From a virus: 30,500 bases of DNA. How positions within the stretch are numbered: the stretch's first letter is position 1; each line of letters starts with the position of its first letter. Below the pieces are notes generated by a model. It did no database searches, was not told the origin of the DNA, and worked only from the letters and a program-made list of their open reading frames with translations. Positions 531-19,265 of this stretch are shown one piece after another. Location: IMG/VR virus record IMGVR_UViG_3300027722_000142, positions 1-30,500 of that record; one strand, given 5' to 3'. Position numbers and translations under genes: made by a program.

Positions 531-760
531 AGCTGCTCGATGTCATAGGCAAAGGCGGTCTAAGCGGCACGCGCCGAGTCGATTACATCCACCATGATCA
601 GGAAGTTCTTGATTATATCACACAAAACGGCCCATGTTCTAGGGAGGATATAGAGATGGATCTTAACCACTCATCAAAGGGCGCTATAGGCCATCTGGCG
701 GGCCTCCTGGGGCAAGGTAAGATAGAGCGCATAGGCAACGAATATAGGAGCATACCATGA
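527..760 (+). CDS. Small winged-helix protein
   Basis: 77 residues. The middle, from HHDQEVLDYITQNGP to KIERIGNEYRSIP, fits a winged helix-turn-helix: helix 1 (EVLDYITQ), CSREDIEMDL, a recognition-like helix (KGAIGHLAGLLGQG) and a beta wing (KIERIGNEY). It is coupled by ATGA overlaps to the 32-aa gene upstream and to nrdD downstream, so it may be a local regulator of nucleotide reduction. No ligand-binding domain is present; DNA binding is inferred from pattern only. Confidence 0.55.
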   Translation: MKLLDVIGKGGLSGTRRVDYIHHDQEVLDYITQNGPCSREDIEMDLNHSSKGAIGHLAGLLGQGKIERIGNEYRSIP

Positions 761-3015
761 AGACAGTTACCACTTCAGACAACCACAACCTAGAATTTAA
801 TCCCCAAAAGATTATAGACAGTATTCTTAAAGAAACCTCCCTAGACGAACCCGCTGCAAAGCGGATTGCTAGGTCCATCGAGAAAAAAACCGAAATGATG
901 GACTCGCTTACCGGCGCACTCATCCGGGGCATGGTCTTAGATTACATGGTCAGGCACGATTTAGGCGATGCCTACAATGACTATAAGCGGGTGGGCCTGC
1001 CAATGGCCGAGATCAAGAAGATTTGGGCAGTAGAAGGCGATTCTGTCCATGAGAATGCTAATATAGATGCCCGGAACCCGGAAGGTATCCATAAGCATAT
1101 TGCCGATGCCCTAAGCAAAGAGGCGGTCCTTACACTGTTGCCTAAGAATCTTAGGAGGTTGCATGTGTCGGGTGACTTGCACATCCATGATCTGGAGTAT
1201 TTTATGACTCGTCAATTTTGTTTTGACAGTGATTTAAGGTACTTCTTCATGTACGGCCTAATTCCAGATGGGACCGGAGAGTCTATTCCTGTGGCTGGTC
1301 CTGCTCGAAATGCGGAAGTGGCGGTCCTCCATGCCGCCAAGGCTCTCGGCTGCATGCAATGCATGTGTGCTGGTGGGCAGGGATTCCAGAACTTTCTAAC
1401 CTTCTTATCGCCATACCTGGAAGGCAAGTCTTACCAGGAAATCAAGCAGCTCATGCAGATGTTCATCTATGAGATGTCTCAGATGATGGTTGCCAGGGGT
1501 GCACAGGTTATCTTTAGTTCCGTGCAATTGACGCCCGGTGTCCCTAAGATCTGGCGGGATAAGCCAGCAGTTTGCCGGGGGGAAGTAGGCCCACAATTAT
1601 ACGGTGCATTTGAGAGGGAGGTCAGGCTGGCATTTGAGGCGTTCATGGATGTACTCTATGAAGGTGATGCATGGGGCAAGCCCTTCAGCTTCCCGAAGCC
1701 TGAAGTAGTGATCAGCCAGGACTTCATAGACAATGTGCCCTTGAAAGTATATCATCCTGATGAACATGAAGCATCGGATTTGGAGAATTTCAAGGCATGG
1801 AGCGATGGCCTTCAATTGACTGAGATCATACCGTCTTATCATTATCTATATCACAAATGTTTCAAGGTCATAGCAAAACACGGATGCATCTATCTGGAAA
1901 GCCAGCTTCATGCAAAGCCCGACACAATAAGCTGCGTGCAATGCTGTGCCTACAAATTTGAGAAGTCTAAGGACGATTCTGATTTTGTGGACCAATTAAA
2001 TTTCAAGGATGGCAAGCACTTCTCCCTGGGATCTATGCAGGTGGTTAGCCTGAACCTGCCAAGGGCTGCTTATGTAGGGCAGACCCTACATGGCACCATA
2101 GATTACCTGAGACAATTGATAGATCGCTCCATAGACATCTTCAGGATCAAGCGTGATGCCATCAATAAGCAGCCTTTGCCCTTTGCGAGACAAGGAGAGC
2201 CGGTCTTTGCAGATCTCAATGAACTGAGCTATGTTATAGGGGTAGTGGGCCTGAATGAAGCGGTGCAGCGCTTGACCGGCTCGCAAATGCATGAATCACC
2301 CGAAGCCTGGAAGATGGCTATCCGGCTCATGACAGAGCTAGAGATCTATGCCAAGACTCGCGGTGCTGCAAGCGGTTTCACTATTGCCCTGGCCAGGACA
2401 CCTGCCGAGACAACTGCCCAAAGGTTCGCTGTGGCTGACCTCCTAGATCCTGCCTACAGGGACTTTGCCAGCCATGTTGTGAAGGGTAATCTCGGAGAAG
2501 CCATGAGCGAGATGGCGCATACAAGGGATCTGCCAGTAGAATACTCCAATGGCACCCACATAGCGGCCAATGCGATGGTGTCCCTTGCCGAGAAGGTCAG
2601 GCTTGAACAAGTCTTTTTCCCAATAGTAGGCGGCGGAAACATCTTCCATATCTTCTTGTCGGATATCAATCCATTCTTTGATGCCAGCTACATAGACGAA
2701 ACATGCAAGCGACAGGACATCTCGGAAAGCCCTGGATTTGATCAGATCGTGGAGGATTTGCAGAATTATATATTTAACTTGATGCAAAAGTCACAATTAG
2801 GATACATAAAGATCTCTAAGGATACAACCATCTGCAAGGTCTGCCATTGTGTGAGGTCGGGCCTACTCACCAAATGCCATGATTGCGGTTCGGAGCAGGT
2901 TACACATATGGCTCTAGTGACTGGTTATTGTGGGGATGTTAGCAAGTTCAACGCGGCCAAACAGCTAGAGGTTGCGGAGAGGCATAGATATTCGTTGGCG
3001 GAGGTGGTGGGATGA
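757..3015 (+). CDS. nrdD: Anaerobic (class III) ribonucleoside-triphosphate reductase
   Basis: 752 residues, close to the usual family length. It reduces ribonucleotides to deoxyribonucleotides by glycyl-radical chemistry and works only without oxygen. The N-terminal 85 or so residues look like an ATP-cone regulatory domain (FNPQKIIDSILKET, RSIEKK). The core has the archaeal-type blocks CAGGQGFQNF, SVQCCAY-like Cys cluster (written CVQCCAYKFE) and GSMQVVSLNLPRAAY. Near the C terminus Cys 693, 696, 707 and 710 form the zinc site, and TGY at 722-724 carries the likely radical Gly 723. The start at 757 overlaps the preceding stop (ATGA) and has GGAG at 743-746. The activase NrdG, needed to make the radical, is not in this window and may come from the host. 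Confidence 0.95.
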   Translation: MKTVTTSDNHNLEFNPQKIIDSILKETSLDEPAAKRIARSIEKKTEMMDSLTGALIRGMVLDYMVRHDLGDAYNDYKRVGLPMAEIKKIWAVEGDSVHENANIDARNPEGIHKHIADALSKEAVLTLLPKNLRRLHVSGDLHIHDLEYFMTRQFCFDSDLRYFFMYGLIPDGTGESIPVAGPARNAEVAVLHAAKALGCMQCMCAGGQGFQNFLTFLSPYLEGKSYQEIKQLMQMFIYEMSQMMVARGAQVIFSSVQLTPGVPKIWRDKPAVCRGEVGPQLYGAFEREVRLAFEAFMDVLYEGDAWGKPFSFPKPEVVISQDFIDNVPLKVYHPDEHEASDLENFKAWSDGLQLTEIIPSYHYLYHKCFKVIAKHGCIYLESQLHAKPDTISCVQCCAYKFEKSKDDSDFVDQLNFKDGKHFSLGSMQVVSLNLPRAAYVGQTLHGTIDYLRQLIDRSIDIFRIKRDAINKQPLPFARQGEPVFADLNELSYVIGVVGLNEAVQRLTGSQMHESPEAWKMAIRLMTELEIYAKTRGAASGFTIALARTPAETTAQRFAVADLLDPAYRDFASHVVKGNLGEAMSEMAHTRDLPVEYSNGTHIAANAMVSLAEKVRLEQVFFPIVGGGNIFHIFLSDINPFFDASYIDETCKRQDISESPGFDQIVEDLQNYIFNLMQKSQLGYIKISKDTTICKVCHCVRSGLLTKCHDCGSEQVTHMALVTGYCGDVSKFNAAKQLEVAERHRYSLAEVVG

Positions 3016-4936: not shown

Positions 4937-4938
4937 AT

Positions 4939-4958
4939 GTTTTTTTTATTTCTTTTTG
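4939..4958 (+). terminator. Poly-T transcription terminator
   Basis: Runs of eight and five T residues (4940-4947 and 4952-4956) immediately after the stop at 4936, the usual archaeal termination signal. Confidence 0.6.
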
Positions 4959-5276
4959 TATCTAAGTTAGATTTTTAGGATAATATCAGTATCTCTAATG
5001 GCTTAGATTCTAACTTAGGCTAACCCTATATATATAAACTAGTTATACTACTTATATATAATAATAATAATAATAATGGATATCGATTTTGTGCATTTCA
5101 AATATAATAATGAAAAATATAATTAGTAGAAGATGAGATTTAAACCAATCCCTCTATAGTCTCGCGATAGTAAACTAAATTTCTAATTTAGATTCGCATT
5201 TTCAAGTATTTCTTCAATCCCTTTACAAAATGTAAATCGATAGCTTTAACTACTTTGCCTAATATATATTATATAC
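4959..5276. other. A/T-rich gap with inverted repeats; candidate origin or regulatory region
   Basis: No gene is visible on either strand. CTAAGTTAGA (4962-4971) is exactly inverted at 5009-5018 (TCTAACTTAG). CTAAATT (5175-5181) is inverted at 5185-5191. There are TATA-like strings at 5029-5037, 5051-5060 and 5261-5275, and a run of TAA triplets at about 5058-5078. The A/T richness, repeats and position before a GINS-like gene would suit a replication origin, but this is inference; it may only be a complex promoter. Confidence 0.45.
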
Positions 5277-5429
5277 ATGGCAACGAAAGAACGATTCTCT
5301 GAACCATTGACGACAACTGCAATCACTATAAAAGCATCTCAATTAAGCTGGATTCGTACCCGTCCTGAATTCAACCTATCTGCATTTGTCCGAAATGCTC
5401 TTGATAAGGAGATGAAAAAGCATGATTGA
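5277..5429 (+). CDS. 50-aa RHH-type DNA-binding protein
   Basis: TTTAITIKASQLSWIRTRP then NLSAFVRNALDKEM fits an RHH fold: a beta strand (AITIKA), helix A and helix B with Asn-Leu-Ser at the turn. The stop overlaps the start of the GINS-like gene by eight bases, so the two are translationally linked. It may repress its own promoter, since TATA-like sequence abuts its start codon, or bind the neighbouring A/T-rich region. Confidence 0.6.
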   Translation: MATKERFSEPLTTTAITIKASQLSWIRTRPEFNLSAFVRNALDKEMKKHD

Positions 5430-5760
5430 CATTCTTGCAACCTATCGAGAAGAAAAAAACAACGCCAAACTCGTTGAACTTCCACCGGGATTCTTTGATC
5501 TTGCTGACCAGGCCATTAAGGATATGCAGGCTGAAGAGATTGGGGGAGAATTTGGTGCAGACATCAAGGCCCAAAACATCAATTCATCCAGCCGATCCTT
5601 AGAGATGCTAAGTGACTTACGGCTTAAGAAGGTCCTGAAGGGAGCTATCGCAGATGCCTACCGGGAAGAGCCACAACATGGGAAGGATCACTTTACGAGC
5701 AAGGAACTTATACTATATAGGAATATCGTTTCAGGAATAAAAGAAATCAAGGGCACATAA
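5422..5760 (+). CDS. GINS-like replication protein, A-domain only
   Basis: 112 residues. The N terminus (DILATYREEKNNAKLVELPPGFF, residues 3-25) matches the start of archaeal Gins51/Sld5-type subunits, where a helix leads into the ELPPGF signature. The C-terminal helices (LRLKKVLKGAIADAYREE, then TSKELILYRNIVSGIKEI) match the end of the GINS A domain. The small B domain of cellular Gins51 is missing. GINS joins MCM and Cdc45/RecJ in the replicative helicase, so this could recruit, replace or inhibit the host complex. The start overlaps the RHH gene. Family assignment is by motif recall, not a search. Confidence 0.65.
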   Translation: MIDILATYREEKNNAKLVELPPGFFDLADQAIKDMQAEEIGGEFGADIKAQNINSSSRSLEMLSDLRLKKVLKGAIADAYREEPQHGKDHFTSKELILYRNIVSGIKEIKGT

Positions 5761-5761
5761 A

Positions 5762-5780
5762 GAGAGGCCCGCCCCCTCTC
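5762..5780. terminator. Hairpin between convergent operons
   Basis: GAGAGG (5762-5767) pairs with CCTCTC (5775-5780). It lies between the end of the GINS-like gene (+) and the end of the minus-strand operon, so it could terminate both. No long T run follows. Confidence 0.4.
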
Positions 5781-5798
5781 CCCGTAAGCCTTAAAAGT

Positions 5799-6071
5799 CT
5801 AGGTCACGCCCGGTCCCTCGAAATATTCTATAGGAAGCGGCTTAAGCTCGGATTCGCACTTTGCCCGCCATGCTTCCAGTGCATCGAGCCTCTGCTTCAC
5901 CTCCTGGTAATCATAACCAACAGATATGTATTTGGGCAGGGGCAGGTTGCTAGTATCCTCTTCAAGCTCATCAATGGCAGACCTTATTGCCAATCGTGTT
6001 CCTTCATGACACCCATCATTATATGAAACCGCCAGTTCTCTTAAGATCTCAATAGCCTTCTGCTTGCTTAT
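5799..6071 (-). CDS. Hypothetical protein, last gene of the mini-gene operon; start unclear
   Basis: The frame stays open and protein-like (KQKAIEILRELAVSYNDG, then RLAIRSAIDELEED) up to an ATA at 6071-6069 that overlaps the preceding gene's TAA as ATAA, the same geometry as the ATGA joints upstream. There is no ATG, GTG or TTG in this stretch. The first NTG codon is a TTG at 5993, preceded by AAGGA, giving 64 residues. From ATA the product would be 90 residues, helical, with a coiled-coil-like part (YQEVKQRLDALEAW). Function unknown. Confidence 0.5.
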   Translation of the reverse strand: MSKQKAIEILRELAVSYNDGCHEGTRLAIRSAIDELEEDTSNLPLPKYISVGYDYQEVKQRLDALEAWRAKCESELKPLPIEYFEGPGVT

Positions 6072-6223
6072 TGTCCCACCACCAGAAACAACGCCCCCAT
6101 AATCATCATTCCCACAAGTACCCCTAAGATAAATATATTCTCCGGCGTATATTGCCAGAGCAGCGATCTAGTGGCATAGATAAGATCGCGGCAAGATTGG
6201 GAGAAGGTTAGAGGATCATTCAT
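6068..6223 (-). CDS. 51-aa single-pass membrane protein
   Basis: ATG 6223 overlaps the preceding stop (ATGA) and has GGAGG four bases upstream. Residues about 30-49 (IFILGVLVGMMIMGALFLVV) form one membrane helix, preceded by a short polar N-terminal region with one Trp. Possible holin- or membrane-remodelling-type protein, but size and topology alone do not decide. Confidence 0.65.
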   Translation of the reverse strand: MNDPLTFSQSCRDLIYATRSLLWQYTPENIFILGVLVGMMIMGALFLVVGQ

Positions 6224-6450
6224 GTGGCCTCCAATTCCCGTAGTAGCCCTTCAATCATCTTGTCGGTGGACATCTCGCGATATTTATTAATATCCTCCGA
6301 TAATCTCAGGACGCTTTGCTCGAATTCGATACCATACTTAGATAGAATTTCATCCTTTCGCTTATGTACCCACGCATCCCATATCGAATCTCTTGCATCT
6401 CGATATTTGATTTTCATCGCTAAGGTGTCGTATTTTATTATTTCTGACAT
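6220..6450 (-). CDS. 76-aa charged helical protein
   Basis: ATG 6450 is chosen because it has GGAGG (same GGAGGCCACATG context as the gene at 6223) and overlaps the previous gene by 13 bases. The chain is helical and charged (RDARDSIWDAWVHKRKDEIL, RLSEDINKYREM). It ends LRELEAT. No family recognised. Confidence 0.6.
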   Translation of the reverse strand: MSEIIKYDTLAMKIKYRDARDSIWDAWVHKRKDEILSKYGIEFEQSVLRLSEDINKYREMSTDKMIEGLLRELEAT

Positions 6451-11354: not shown

Positions 11355-12000
11355 ACGCATTTCTGTCATCTGCCACCCAAACGAAAAGCAAACTTCCGAG
11401 TCGGTTGATCCATATGCATACGACGGATGGGAAACGCAAAAAAAATGCGGACGCTGTGGGAAGGTGCTACCATTTAAATTCTTTAATAAGGCCAATAAAG
11501 GCAAATACCGGTTGCAATCGTGGTGCATTAAATGCAATGCAGAGAATGCGTTTGATTGGAGCCATAGAACCGGTAGGAAAATATCTATGGACCAAAATCA
11601 AAAATGTTCAAGTTATCTCGGGGTTCATATAGCAGAAAGCATACTTTCCAGATATTTCAAAGGCATACAGCGAATGCCATATGGTCATAAAGGATATGAC
11701 TATATATGTTCAAAGGGATATAAAATAGATGTAAAGAGCGGATGTATGCGTTATAGGGGTCCTTACAAATATTGGGCATTTTCTGTCTGGAAAAACAAAA
11801 TGCCTGATTATTACATGTTCTTAGCATTTGATAATCGCGATAAACTCAACCCAGAACATATCTGGCTTATTCCCGGCGCGGTTGTCAATAACCGGGATTG
11901 CATAACAGTGTCATATAATCGTCTTAAGGATTGGTCGGAATACGAACGCCCCATAAACAAGGTAATCGAATGCTGCGATTCAATGAAGGTGGTTGCGTGA
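11347..12000 (+). CDS. Zinc-finger PD-(D/E)XK-like endonuclease
   Basis: 217 residues. N-terminal zinc finger CGRC (about 34-37) with CIKC (about 60-63) and the KFFNKANKGKY block often seen next to phage and homing nucleases. Then a core with E in AESILSRYF, D in GYDYICSKGYKIDVKSG, giving D...D-V-K like the PD-(D/E)XK active site, followed by a beta strand YWAFSVW. Probably cuts DNA in recombination, repair or host takeover. The gene is richer in A/T than its neighbours, which hints at separate origin. Its TGA overlaps the next start as GTGA. Confidence 0.6.
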   Translation: MNERISVICHPNEKQTSESVDPYAYDGWETQKKCGRCGKVLPFKFFNKANKGKYRLQSWCIKCNAENAFDWSHRTGRKISMDQNQKCSSYLGVHIAESILSRYFKGIQRMPYGHKGYDYICSKGYKIDVKSGCMRYRGPYKYWAFSVWKNKMPDYYMFLAFDNRDKLNPEHIWLIPGAVVNNRDCITVSYNRLKDWSEYERPINKVIECCDSMKVVA

Positions 12001-12731
12001 ATCCACCCATTTTATTGTCCCTGTCAAACAACGAGAATAACACACCCGATCGGGTCAAAGACCTCGTTAAAGCAATCGAGTCTTTCAAGGGACAGATCGT
12101 GAGAATATCGGATGATCCGAAACAACCGGCTGATATCTGCATGAAAACGCGAGATAAACAAATATTCATCGAGGTCAAGGATACCAAACAGGCCGGAAAG
12201 GTATCTAATGATATTTGGGGATCGATGCAGGGCCATTTCGGGGATCAGCTTGTTAAGTTACTGGATGAGTCATCAGAGGCGTTTGTCATAGTGCTGGCAA
12301 CTTACCCAGAATGCCTCCAAGAAGTGCCACAGTTTACTCGGCAGGGGGATCATACCAAATGGGCAGGGAAAGCTCTCCAGGAGTCAAATAAGACCACTCT
12401 ACGGGCATTGAATGCCGATGCCTTTGGCTCTTGCATTCCTGTAATCTACCTGTCTAAGGACCGGGTACTGAGTTTCAAGGAAGCTCTGAGTTATGGGAAG
12501 GCCCGGCTCCTGGGCGCAAATCCCTTCCAATGGACCAGCCCACACAAAGGAAAGGCAGGGAAGATATCGGCGCTCACCAAGGCGCGGGGCATTGGCGTCA
12601 AGAACTCTGAGGCTCTGTTAGGGCACTTCGGGTCAATCAAGAATATTGCCCTGGCCGGATACGAGGATCTCTTGAAATGTCCGGGAATAGGGCCTGAAAG
12701 GGCGATTGCGGTTATGGAGTTGCTGGCATGA
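11997..12731 (+). CDS. XPF/Hef-like structure-specific nuclease with HhH motifs
   Basis: 244 residues from GTG 11997, which overlaps the preceding stop; ATG 11970 is an alternative. The nuclease part has PADICM (D46) and IFIEVKDTKQ (E59, K61, D62), a variant of the ERCC4 'GD...ERK..D' active site with V in place of R. The C-terminal 55 residues (KARGIGVKNSEALLGHFGSI and LLKCPGIGPERAIAVMELL) are a helix-hairpin-helix pair for binding DNA. Such enzymes cut forked or flapped DNA; no helicase part is present. Neighbours point to a recombination module. Confidence 0.75.
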   Translation: MNPPILLSLSNNENNTPDRVKDLVKAIESFKGQIVRISDDPKQPADICMKTRDKQIFIEVKDTKQAGKVSNDIWGSMQGHFGDQLVKLLDESSEAFVIVLATYPECLQEVPQFTRQGDHTKWAGKALQESNKTTLRALNADAFGSCIPVIYLSKDRVLSFKEALSYGKARLLGANPFQWTSPHKGKAGKISALTKARGIGVKNSEALLGHFGSIKNIALAGYEDLLKCPGIGPERAIAVMELLA

Positions 12732-13224: not shown

Positions 13225-13356
13225 ATGAAACGGATTAACGTATTGATTTCAGAAGATGCTAGGCAAATTCTCGATGAATTTCAGAAGAAGAATAAAATAT
13301 CCACATTAGATGATGCGGTGGATCAATATATTAAATATCACGAGGCGCGAACGTGA
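13225..13356 (+). CDS. 43-aa RHH (CopG-type) repressor
   Basis: MKRINVLISEDARQILDEFQ then KKNKISTLDDAVDQYI is a complete minimal RHH fold: strand RINVLI, helix DARQILDEFQKKN, helix TLDDAVDQYIKYH. It lies just after a perfect 28-base palindrome, so self-repression is very likely. Its stop overlaps the GTG start of the HNH gene as GTGA, so it would control that nuclease too. Confidence 0.75.
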   Translation: MKRINVLISEDARQILDEFQKKNKISTLDDAVDQYIKYHEART

Positions 13357-13856
13357 CTGTGTATCTTAATCTAACCAGAAACAAAATCACATCGGTGGAC
13401 GACATCGATGGAGATCTTGCGAACGTTAGATGGTATGCGCTTTATGGGAACGGTGTTCCGTATGCCGCTAGAACATTATCACGTCGTTATGAGAATCATA
13501 GAACCGTGTTATTACATCGGATCATAATGGAAAGAATGCTAAATAGAAAACTAGCGCGCGGCGAACGTCCTGATCATATCAATCACGATAGTTTGGACAA
13601 TCGGAGATCAAATCTAAGACTTGCCAGCGTACTTGAGAACAACCGCAATGCCAGATGTGTTTCTTCTAAGAAGCTAAGCCATTTTAAAGGAGTGACAAAA
13701 AATAGAAGCGGTTGGATGGCACGGATACGCGTGAATGGAAAATTAAACGGTCTAGGGACGTTTCATTCAGAAGAAGAAGCGGCGAAAGCATATGATCGCG
13801 CAGCGCGAGAATACTTTGGTTCGTTTTGCGTATTAAATTTTTCGACGGAGGTATAA
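13353..13856 (+). CDS. HNH endonuclease with AP2 DNA-binding domain (homing type)
   Basis: 167 residues. HNH region: H55 in LLHRIIME, DHIN (74-77), N82 and LENNRNA (94-100). C-terminal AP2 domain at about 110-165 (FKGVTKNRSGWMARIRVNGK, LGTFHSEEEAAKAYDRAA). Such proteins are free-standing homing endonucleases in phages and make single-strand or double-strand cuts that spread their own gene. GTG start overlaps the RHH stop. The A/T-rich codon use suggests a recent arrival together with its repressor. Confidence 0.85.
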   Translation: MTVYLNLTRNKITSVDDIDGDLANVRWYALYGNGVPYAARTLSRRYENHRTVLLHRIIMERMLNRKLARGERPDHINHDSLDNRRSNLRLASVLENNRNARCVSSKKLSHFKGVTKNRSGWMARIRVNGKLNGLGTFHSEEEAAKAYDRAAREYFGSFCVLNFSTEV

Positions 13857-15452: not shown

Positions 15453-15950
15453 ATGTTTAAATGTGGTGATAAGTGTACGGGCAAGTTCGCTGCTGAAGCC
15501 CGATTGGTCAGGGAAAAGATTTGCTACGAAAACGCAAAGAAGGAAAACGATCAACGTGGCATGAAATCAGCCGCCCGAAAAGTACAGAATACAAAGGATT
15601 ACATCAAGATAATGGAAGAGTGGCCGCCATCCGTCAATTTGGCCATCGGCCCGGCTCTGATGATTGGAAAGATCCGATTACCCGAAAAACAAGCCGCTAT
15701 TATGAGACATGTTCAACGGGCACAAGAGACTGGTATCAATCCCATGAACGGCTTGTCATTAGGACCGCAAGGCGTGACTGGTACCATCATACGATACTTG
15801 ATTGCAAAGCATGATCGCAAACCGTTTATCTTGGAGAAGCGCATTCTCCTAACAAAGGACACCATCAATGCAATTAATTATCTGATGGGTACTTGCCAGG
15901 GCAACGCAAAGGCAACGAACTTCCTGAGATCTCTGGTAGCGACTGCATGA
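15453..15950 (+). CDS. 165-aa hypothetical protein
   Basis: Starts three bases after the ParB-like gene. Basic and helical, with CGDKC near the N terminus. Regions ARKVQNTKDYIKIMEEWPPS and GTIIRYLIAKHDRK look folded, but I recognise no family. ATGA-coupled to the zinc-ribbon gene. Probably works with the ParB-like protein. Confidence 0.6.
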   Translation: MFKCGDKCTGKFAAEARLVREKICYENAKKENDQRGMKSAARKVQNTKDYIKIMEEWPPSVNLAIGPALMIGKIRLPEKQAAIMRHVQRAQETGINPMNGLSLGPQGVTGTIIRYLIAKHDRKPFILEKRILLTKDTINAINYLMGTCQGNAKATNFLRSLVATA

Positions 15951-16069
15951 AAACTTATCACTGTCTCCGCTGCCTGCATACGTGGTATCCCCGGAAGGAT
16001 GCCATGCCCAGGGTTTGCCCGCGCTGTAAATCTGCCTATTGGGATGTCCCTAAGAAAGCAGATCGTTAA
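15947..16069 (+). CDS. 40-aa zinc-ribbon protein
   Basis: CLRCLHTWYPRKDAMPRVCP then RC: CxxC...W.PR...CPxC. Same length and pattern as the protein at 8290-8412, so the two are likely paralogues. ATGA-coupled to the gene before. Confidence 0.65.
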   Translation: MKTYHCLRCLHTWYPRKDAMPRVCPRCKSAYWDVPKKADR

Positions 16070-17719: not shown

Positions 17720-18721
17720 ATGGTAAGATGTGAAGAGTTTTATAAGAAATGGGATTCTTGCGGTAATTTCTGCGAGAAGCACCCAAATACCGCCGCACAG
17801 ATTGAAGCATATTTAGACCAGATGGATGAAATTGAGGAAATAACAGCAGATTGCTTACCGGACGTTAAACCTTCCGCGATCGCGGAAATGCGAATTTCTG
17901 AAAACGCATGCAGGCCGCTTATTCGTGAGAAAGACCCAGAAGTGCGCCGGGAAGTTATCAAGCAAATTGTAAAGAAAAGCGAGGAAAAAGCGCAAACCGG
18001 GGCACGGCCAACAGTAACCTCTAAAGAGGTTAAGAAGATCCTGGCTGATGTCAAACGGCCCGAACCACCGAAGCCAGAACTTACCAAGAATGCTCCAAGA
18101 TGGGAAGGCAGTTGGTTAATTCTTGGAAAGCATAAGGTCTTTTGTGGTGATTGCAACTCAGAAGAGTTCAAAGCAGAATGCAAAGGCGCAAAGTTCGCTT
18201 TCTCTGATCCTCCCTATAACGCGGGCGTTGCTGAGTGGGATCATGATTTTACATGGGCACAAGATTGGCTGGCCGATCTGGCGCCAATCGTTGCAGTCAC
18301 ACCTGGTATAGTTTCAATTCAAGACTTCTTCAAGTCTACCAATATGCCTTATGCGTGGTCGGTGGCTTGCCTGATCAAAAACGGCATGACTCGCGGCGCG
18401 TTGGGCTTCGGAAATTGGATTTACGTTTCACTCTTCAGCAAAGAATCTCTCTTCAGAACATCCCAGGATTATCTAGAAGTCTCTATAAAGACCTCCGAAA
18501 CAGAAGACAGCAACCACAAAGGCCGAAAGCCTTTAGACCTTTTGAAGTGGCTCCTGGAACGCTTCAGTAAGCCCGGTGATGTGGTTATAGATCCTTTCCT
18601 TGGATCAGGAACCACCTTAATAGCCTGTGAAAAAATGGGCAGAACGTGTATAGGTGCTGAAATAAGCCGCGAATACTGCGAAGCGATAGGAACGAGGTGG
18701 CTACGTGAGAACACCATTTGA
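17720..18721 (+). CDS. DNA methyltransferase, beta class (N6-adenine or N4-cytosine)
   Basis: 333 residues. The catalytic motif DPPY is at 163-166 and the cofactor motif DPFLGSGTT at 291-299; DPPY before FxGxG marks the beta class. HKGRKPLDLLKWLLE (266-280) is the usual block before the SAM site. The N-terminal 130 residues are extra, with Cys pairs and a ParB-like helical region (VRREVIKQIVKKSEEK, TSKEVKKILADVK). It likely methylates viral DNA against host restriction or marks it for packaging. The downstream gene overlaps it by 17 bases. Confidence 0.85.
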   Translation: MVRCEEFYKKWDSCGNFCEKHPNTAAQIEAYLDQMDEIEEITADCLPDVKPSAIAEMRISENACRPLIREKDPEVRREVIKQIVKKSEEKAQTGARPTVTSKEVKKILADVKRPEPPKPELTKNAPRWEGSWLILGKHKVFCGDCNSEEFKAECKGAKFAFSDPPYNAGVAEWDHDFTWAQDWLADLAPIVAVTPGIVSIQDFFKSTNMPYAWSVACLIKNGMTRGALGFGNWIYVSLFSKESLFRTSQDYLEVSIKTSETEDSNHKGRKPLDLLKWLLERFSKPGDVVIDPFLGSGTTLIACEKMGRTCIGAEISREYCEAIGTRWLRENTI

Positions 18722-19265
18722 CGCGACCAACGCCGGGTTCTCAGGAAAAGCGCACCTCGCGGCGAGAGAACAGTTCTATCCAAGACTATTTAATACTTCT
18801 CCTGGAAGCCTGAAATTCGTTGATACGGTGATGGATGGCACCGAAAGAAACCGAATTTTAGACGGCGAAATGGCCGTAGATAGGATGGTCTACGTTACAA
18901 AAACCGACTTACACCACCCATTAACATTCACCATTCAAGAACGATTTAGACGACCACAGTATAAACGATATCAAGATCTTACGATAACTGAGCATAACGG
19001 ATGCTCAGGCATGCCATCTGAACTTTATAAGCTGACATGTGGTATTTTCGTTTATGGCTATTACTCTGAGCAAAACGATAAGATCTTGCAGGCACTGGCC
19101 ATAAACACAAGCGGCTTGATGTATTCTTTTGCTGTTGGGGATCTAACTCCCGATTCAAAAAAGATTAACTGCAAAGAGCAGACATTCCTTTCCTTCCTAT
19201 TCGATCAATTGTATAGAAAGGGCCTGGTTCTGTTCTCTTACACATCACCCCAGGGGGCCAGATAG
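18705..19265 (+). CDS. 186-aa possible PD-(D/E)XK-type nuclease
   Basis: GTG start inside the methyltransferase gene with GAGGTGG upstream. The core NRILDGEMAVDRMVYV, LTFTIQERFRRPQYKRYQDL and SELYKLTCGIFVYGYY resembles a viral nuclease pattern with an Asp on one strand and Q-E-R-F-R on the next, where PD-(D/E)XK enzymes have E-x-K. The assignment is by pattern only. Its tight link to a methyltransferase would suit a restriction partner; a DNA-repair or packaging role is equally possible. Confidence 0.4.
   Translation: MRTPFDATNAGFSGKAHLAAREQFYPRLFNTSPGSLKFVDTVMDGTERNRILDGEMAVDRMVYVTKTDLHHPLTFTIQERFRRPQYKRYQDLTITEHNGCSGMPSELYKLTCGIFVYGYYSEQNDKILQALAINTSGLMYSFAVGDLTPDSKKINCKEQTFLSFLFDQLYRKGLVLFSYTSPQGAR

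Follow-up and report, generated by a model that had tools for sequence, protein, structure and literature searches.

Here we describe a gene for what is almost certainly a stand-alone GINS A domain, carried by a virus genome from the IMG/VR record IMGVR_UViG_3300027722_000142. The whole stretch analysed, hereafter the window, comprises 30,500 bases of this record. The open reading frame given in a preliminary description of this DNA is present with the reported coordinates and length, having an ATG at 5422, a stop at 5760 and a product of 112 aa. This gene and the features directly upstream of it are as follows.

4937 to 5276, no strand assigned: A/T-rich intergenic gap (G+C 23.5%), putative promoter region of the operon and candidate origin.
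4961 to 5192, no strand assigned: three TCTAANTTAGA palindromes, at 4961-4971, 5009-5019 (one mismatch) and 5182-5192; no others occur in the window.
4962 to 5018, no strand assigned: inverted repeat with 17-nt arms at 4962-4978 and 5002-5018 that are 82% complementary.
5277 to 5429, plus strand: 50-aa ORF that overlaps the start of the GINS gene by 8 nt (ATGATTGA); by eye only, its product resembles a ribbon-helix-helix protein.
5422 to 5760, plus strand: putative stand-alone GINS A-domain gene, 112 aa, recognised by the NF053565 model, a profile built from PDB chains, hhalign and a homologue in a second virus.

Two contigs of one metagenome, L002 and L007, overlap the window at 99.98%, and L007 adds 6.5 kb upstream of it with tail collar-like genes, a FilR1-type regulator and a UbiA-type prenyltransferase. 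The source is probably a tailed virus of archaea with a methanogen as its host. Such a host is likely because the name FilR1 derives from a methanogenesis regulator; alongside this, the full-length best relative of the window's terminase large subunit is that of the methanogen tailed virus psiM2, at 38% identity over 96% of the length. The psiM viruses differ in that tblastn against a phage collection found no match to the 112-aa protein in them. The homologues of the FilR1-type regulator and the UbiA-type prenyltransferase occur in both this virus (L007:3742-4527 and 5513-6295) and the second one (L026:16503-17249 and 18457-19191), and are unusual cargo that may alter host methanogenesis control or lipids. 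Elsewhere in the window, an ORF at 13353-13856 encodes an HNH plus AP2 domain protein, likely a homing endonuclease, and a 266-aa protein (11931-12731), which ends in a helix-hairpin-helix and weakly matches a nuclease-like domain (NOV_C), is possibly a repair nuclease.

The assignment to GINS relies on profile comparisons. Residues 8-111 of the product match positions 58-155 of the 159 in NF053565, the NCBIfam Gins23 model, with 27.7 bits (E=2.1e-6), and the matched part is the A-domain portion of the model. When the record was searched in six frames with NF053565, the 5422-5760 ORF was the sole match (E=8.9e-8). Both viral proteins score below the equivalog cut-off of the model, at 27.7 bits (window) and 24.2 bits (locus L015 of the second virus) against a required 120. 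As a control, the Thermococcus kodakarensis A domains were compared with the same model and gave E=3.8e-11 for Gins51 and E=4.5e-7 for Gins23, the latter value implying that the model detects the viral protein about as readily as a genuine Gins23. The A domains of four GINS chains from PDB, and no other sequences, also went into a test profile (3anw A, 3anw B, 9moj C and 7yil A), which among 1234 open frames ranked the two viral proteins first (L015, E=1.8e-8; window, E=4e-7). The real protein scored 26.6 bits with this profile, compared with a maximum of 12.9 bits in 2000 shuffles. Alignment of the two viral proteins to the four cellular A domains with hhalign gave P=1.6e-8 and a probability of 94.5% over 104 columns, with the general GINS A pattern kept over the whole length of the viral protein. 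The similarity to a GINS A domain proposed in the preliminary description is thus borne out by both profiles and by hhalign, the search against GINS families giving a significant match to the A domain over nearly the whole length.

It is very improbable that the product is an unrelated small helical protein which resembles an A domain by chance, as the two profiles agree and both viral homologues are significant singly, whereas shuffles are not. What speaks for a chance resemblance is that neither Pfam nor PHROGs nor a single-sequence phmmer search of PDB matched the 112-aa protein, and that structure prediction and fold search were uninformative. The silence of Pfam weighs little, since in a control the Pfam Sld5 model passed its own cut-off in only one of 14 control genomes (four of the six sub-threshold ringers were archaeal). 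No PHROG family was clearly matched by the T. kodakarensis A domains themselves. The predicted structures were poor (pLDDT 48 from the sequence alone and 60 from two sequences), with the helices in a plausible order, and a fold search of the pLDDT 60 model against PDB returned meaningless matches only. A hand-made GINS consensus served only as bait for real PDB GINS chains; as a tblastn query it had no match among phages or plasmids, which is not evidence of absence. Outside the window, the same virus has a 60-aa helical ORF (L007:4556-4738) with a weak match to the PDB-only profile (E=0.0015) and none to NF053565; this resemblance is probably coincidental, although the ORF is possibly a second GINS-like piece.

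The second virus (IMGVR_UViG_3300042808_000057, 56.7 kb) was reached by following the RecT-like gene, which is 82% identical to that of the window, and then by profile search. The homologue, at L015:5605-5946, is 70% identical to the window protein over the whole length and on its own matches NF053565 with E=3.8e-6 in six frames and E=2.4e-5 as a protein. Over the 110 codons compared, dN is 0.22 and dS about 2 (saturated), with a ratio near 0.11, a result similar to that for RecT; the GINS protein is therefore under purifying selection. Like the window gene, the L015 gene encodes an A domain only and overlaps a small upstream ORF; it differs in that this ORF is Zn-ribbon-like. Where the window gene has its ATG, the L015 gene has CTG, and its frame lacks an ATG upstream of residue 35, which makes its start codon uncertain. 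The order of several non-structural genes is shared by the two viruses, whose terminases and structural genes differ, and DNA similarity is clear from the GINS start onward. RecT and GINS rank among the products with the strongest conservation between the two. A 66-aa protein (L007:5245-5445 and L015:4808-5008) is 92% identical, more than either of these, and its genome position differs between the two viruses. Scans of IMG/VR with an alignment of the two proteins, and with a DNA pattern derived from LKKVLKGA, yielded no third family member. Pattern-plus-tblastn searches that used the protein as query gave no match in IMG/VR, GTDB genomes, phages or plasmids, as divergent relatives escape short exact patterns. 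The A-only GINS family thus has two known members.

In both viruses the A domain has no B domain attached on either side, be it N-terminal (as in Gins23) or C-terminal (as in Gins51). The open frame in the window begins 6 nt (two codons) before the ATG at 5422, leaving no space for an N-terminal B domain; the upstream ORF overlaps it in another reading frame and is no N-terminal extension of GINS; and the GINS frame closes past the last predicted helix, leaving none for a C-terminal one. These limits define the A-only architecture and, with the same arrangement in L015, substantiate the earlier claim that the B domain is missing. We discarded the idea of a frameshift fusion between the upstream ORF and GINS, as the frames differ and no slippery site was seen. 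A separate, highly diverged B domain coded elsewhere in the virus is possible.

Which of the two archaeal paralogues the viral protein descends from is less clear from these comparisons. The preliminary description called it Gins51-type, and its A domain does lie at the protein N-terminus, as in Gins51; pairwise hhalign scores against the Gins51 and Gins23 A domains were mixed and favoured neither, so that the position fits the label and the type itself is not borne out. Archaeal Gins51 (Gins15, AB-type; T. kodakarensis 3anw chain A) has its A domain at the very N-terminus and the same helix order, and its profile aligns end to end with the viral protein, but it is cellular, has the C-terminal B domain that the viral protein lacks and shows low pairwise identity. 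Archaeal Gins23 (BA-type; NF053565, 3anw chain B) has the curated model that matches best, in its A-domain part at 58-155, but carries an N-terminal B domain absent from the viral protein, whose 27.7 bits compare with a family cut-off of 120. A call of Gins23 from the model name was abandoned after the T. kodakarensis control: NF053565 scores T. kodakarensis Gins51 above T. kodakarensis Gins23, and its name therefore does not discriminate between the paralogues.

The 50-aa ORF upstream of GINS matched no family. At the same position L015 has an unrelated ORF, the Zn-ribbon-like one (L015:5475-5612), with the same kind of overlap with GINS. The Zn-ribbon-like gene has a homologue in the window at 15947-16069, 10 kb from GINS, which indicates that the small genes next to GINS are shuffled between viruses. 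The intergenic gap at 4937-5276, which includes the lowest-GC 200 bp of the window, is A/T-rich and repeat-bearing as had been described, but its repeats are short and exceed chance only modestly: the three TCTAANTTAGA sites compare with a mean of 0.9 expected, and seven of 100 shuffles reach three. In L015 an A/T-rich intergenic stretch likewise lies upstream of the GINS operon, with repeats different from those of the window. The gap fits a promoter, an origin or both, and is a candidate origin.

MCM, PolB, DnaB and Prim-Pol were not recognised in the window, its sister contigs or the L015 record, and Pfam scans of many other ORFs found no replicative enzyme; the records may be incomplete, and a viral helicase could have been overlooked. 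A 127-kb archaeal virus record does carry MCM, and has an NrdD related to that of the window. The window's anaerobic ribonucleotide reductase NrdD (757-3015) is 44% identical to it, and no match to NrdD was seen in the L015 virus.

The preliminary description proposed that a viral GINS piece could capture the host replicative helicase or block it, either of which is plausible from the sequence. The reading we favour, which we hold to be about evenly poised between right and wrong, is that the viral A-only GINS becomes part of host GINS or imitates it, and directs host MCM to viral DNA. The small helical protein would use its GINS A-domain surfaces to bind host replisome partners, through pairing with Gins51/Gins23 of the host or through contact with its MCM, and would thereby recruit this helicase to viral DNA or retain it there. 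In this reading the A/T-rich gap next to the operon is the candidate origin and a possible binding site of the coupled small upstream protein. Consistent with recruitment are the profile matches, the homologue in a second virus, purifying selection, the failure to find a viral helicase or polymerase, and the position of the operon by the most A/T-rich stretch. In T. kodakarensis the Gins51-Gins23 interaction persists without the Gins51 B domain (PMC3114041), and in several euryarchaea the MCM helicase is stimulated by GINS (PMC4356968). The missing B domain counts against recruitment, as it could be needed for activation, and so do the poor structure models, the small size of the family and the uncertain start of the L015 copy. 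A more elaborate version is tentative and rather unlikely as a whole: a stand-alone GINS A domain, translationally coupled with an exchangeable small DNA-binding protein and located by an A/T-rich origin, would hijack host MCM, so that initiation depends on supplying a helicase accessory factor and not a viral helicase.

The same A-only anatomy and GINS homology would also fit a decoy, in which the viral A domain enters the host GINS tetramer or occupies its MCM site and the resulting B-less, inactive complex halts host chromosome replication in favour of the virus; the sufficiency of the Gins51 A domain for pairing with Gins23 (PMC3114041) serves this reading too. We nevertheless consider it doubtful, because the virus, in which neither a replicative helicase nor a replicative polymerase was detected, probably needs the host replisome, and because the gene sits with RecT in a non-structural block common to both viruses. 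That block, and the strong conservation of RecT and GINS within it, could instead point to a helical adaptor that works with RecT or the helix-hairpin-helix protein in recombination-dependent viral replication and has lost contact with MCM. Such a role is improbable, more so than the decoy, as RecT lies ~4 kb from GINS in the window with opposite-strand genes between, and the retained GINS A pattern extends over the whole protein.

GINS is a defining part of the CMG helicase in archaea and eukaryotes and had been reported absent from viruses; searches of an open-access literature library found no later report of a viral GINS. A virus-borne A-only GINS means that viruses can carry a GINS factor, and offers a natural minimal GINS for asking what effect the A domain alone has on MCM. 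More generally, it suggests a possible replication route for archaeal tailed viruses that lack a helicase of their own.
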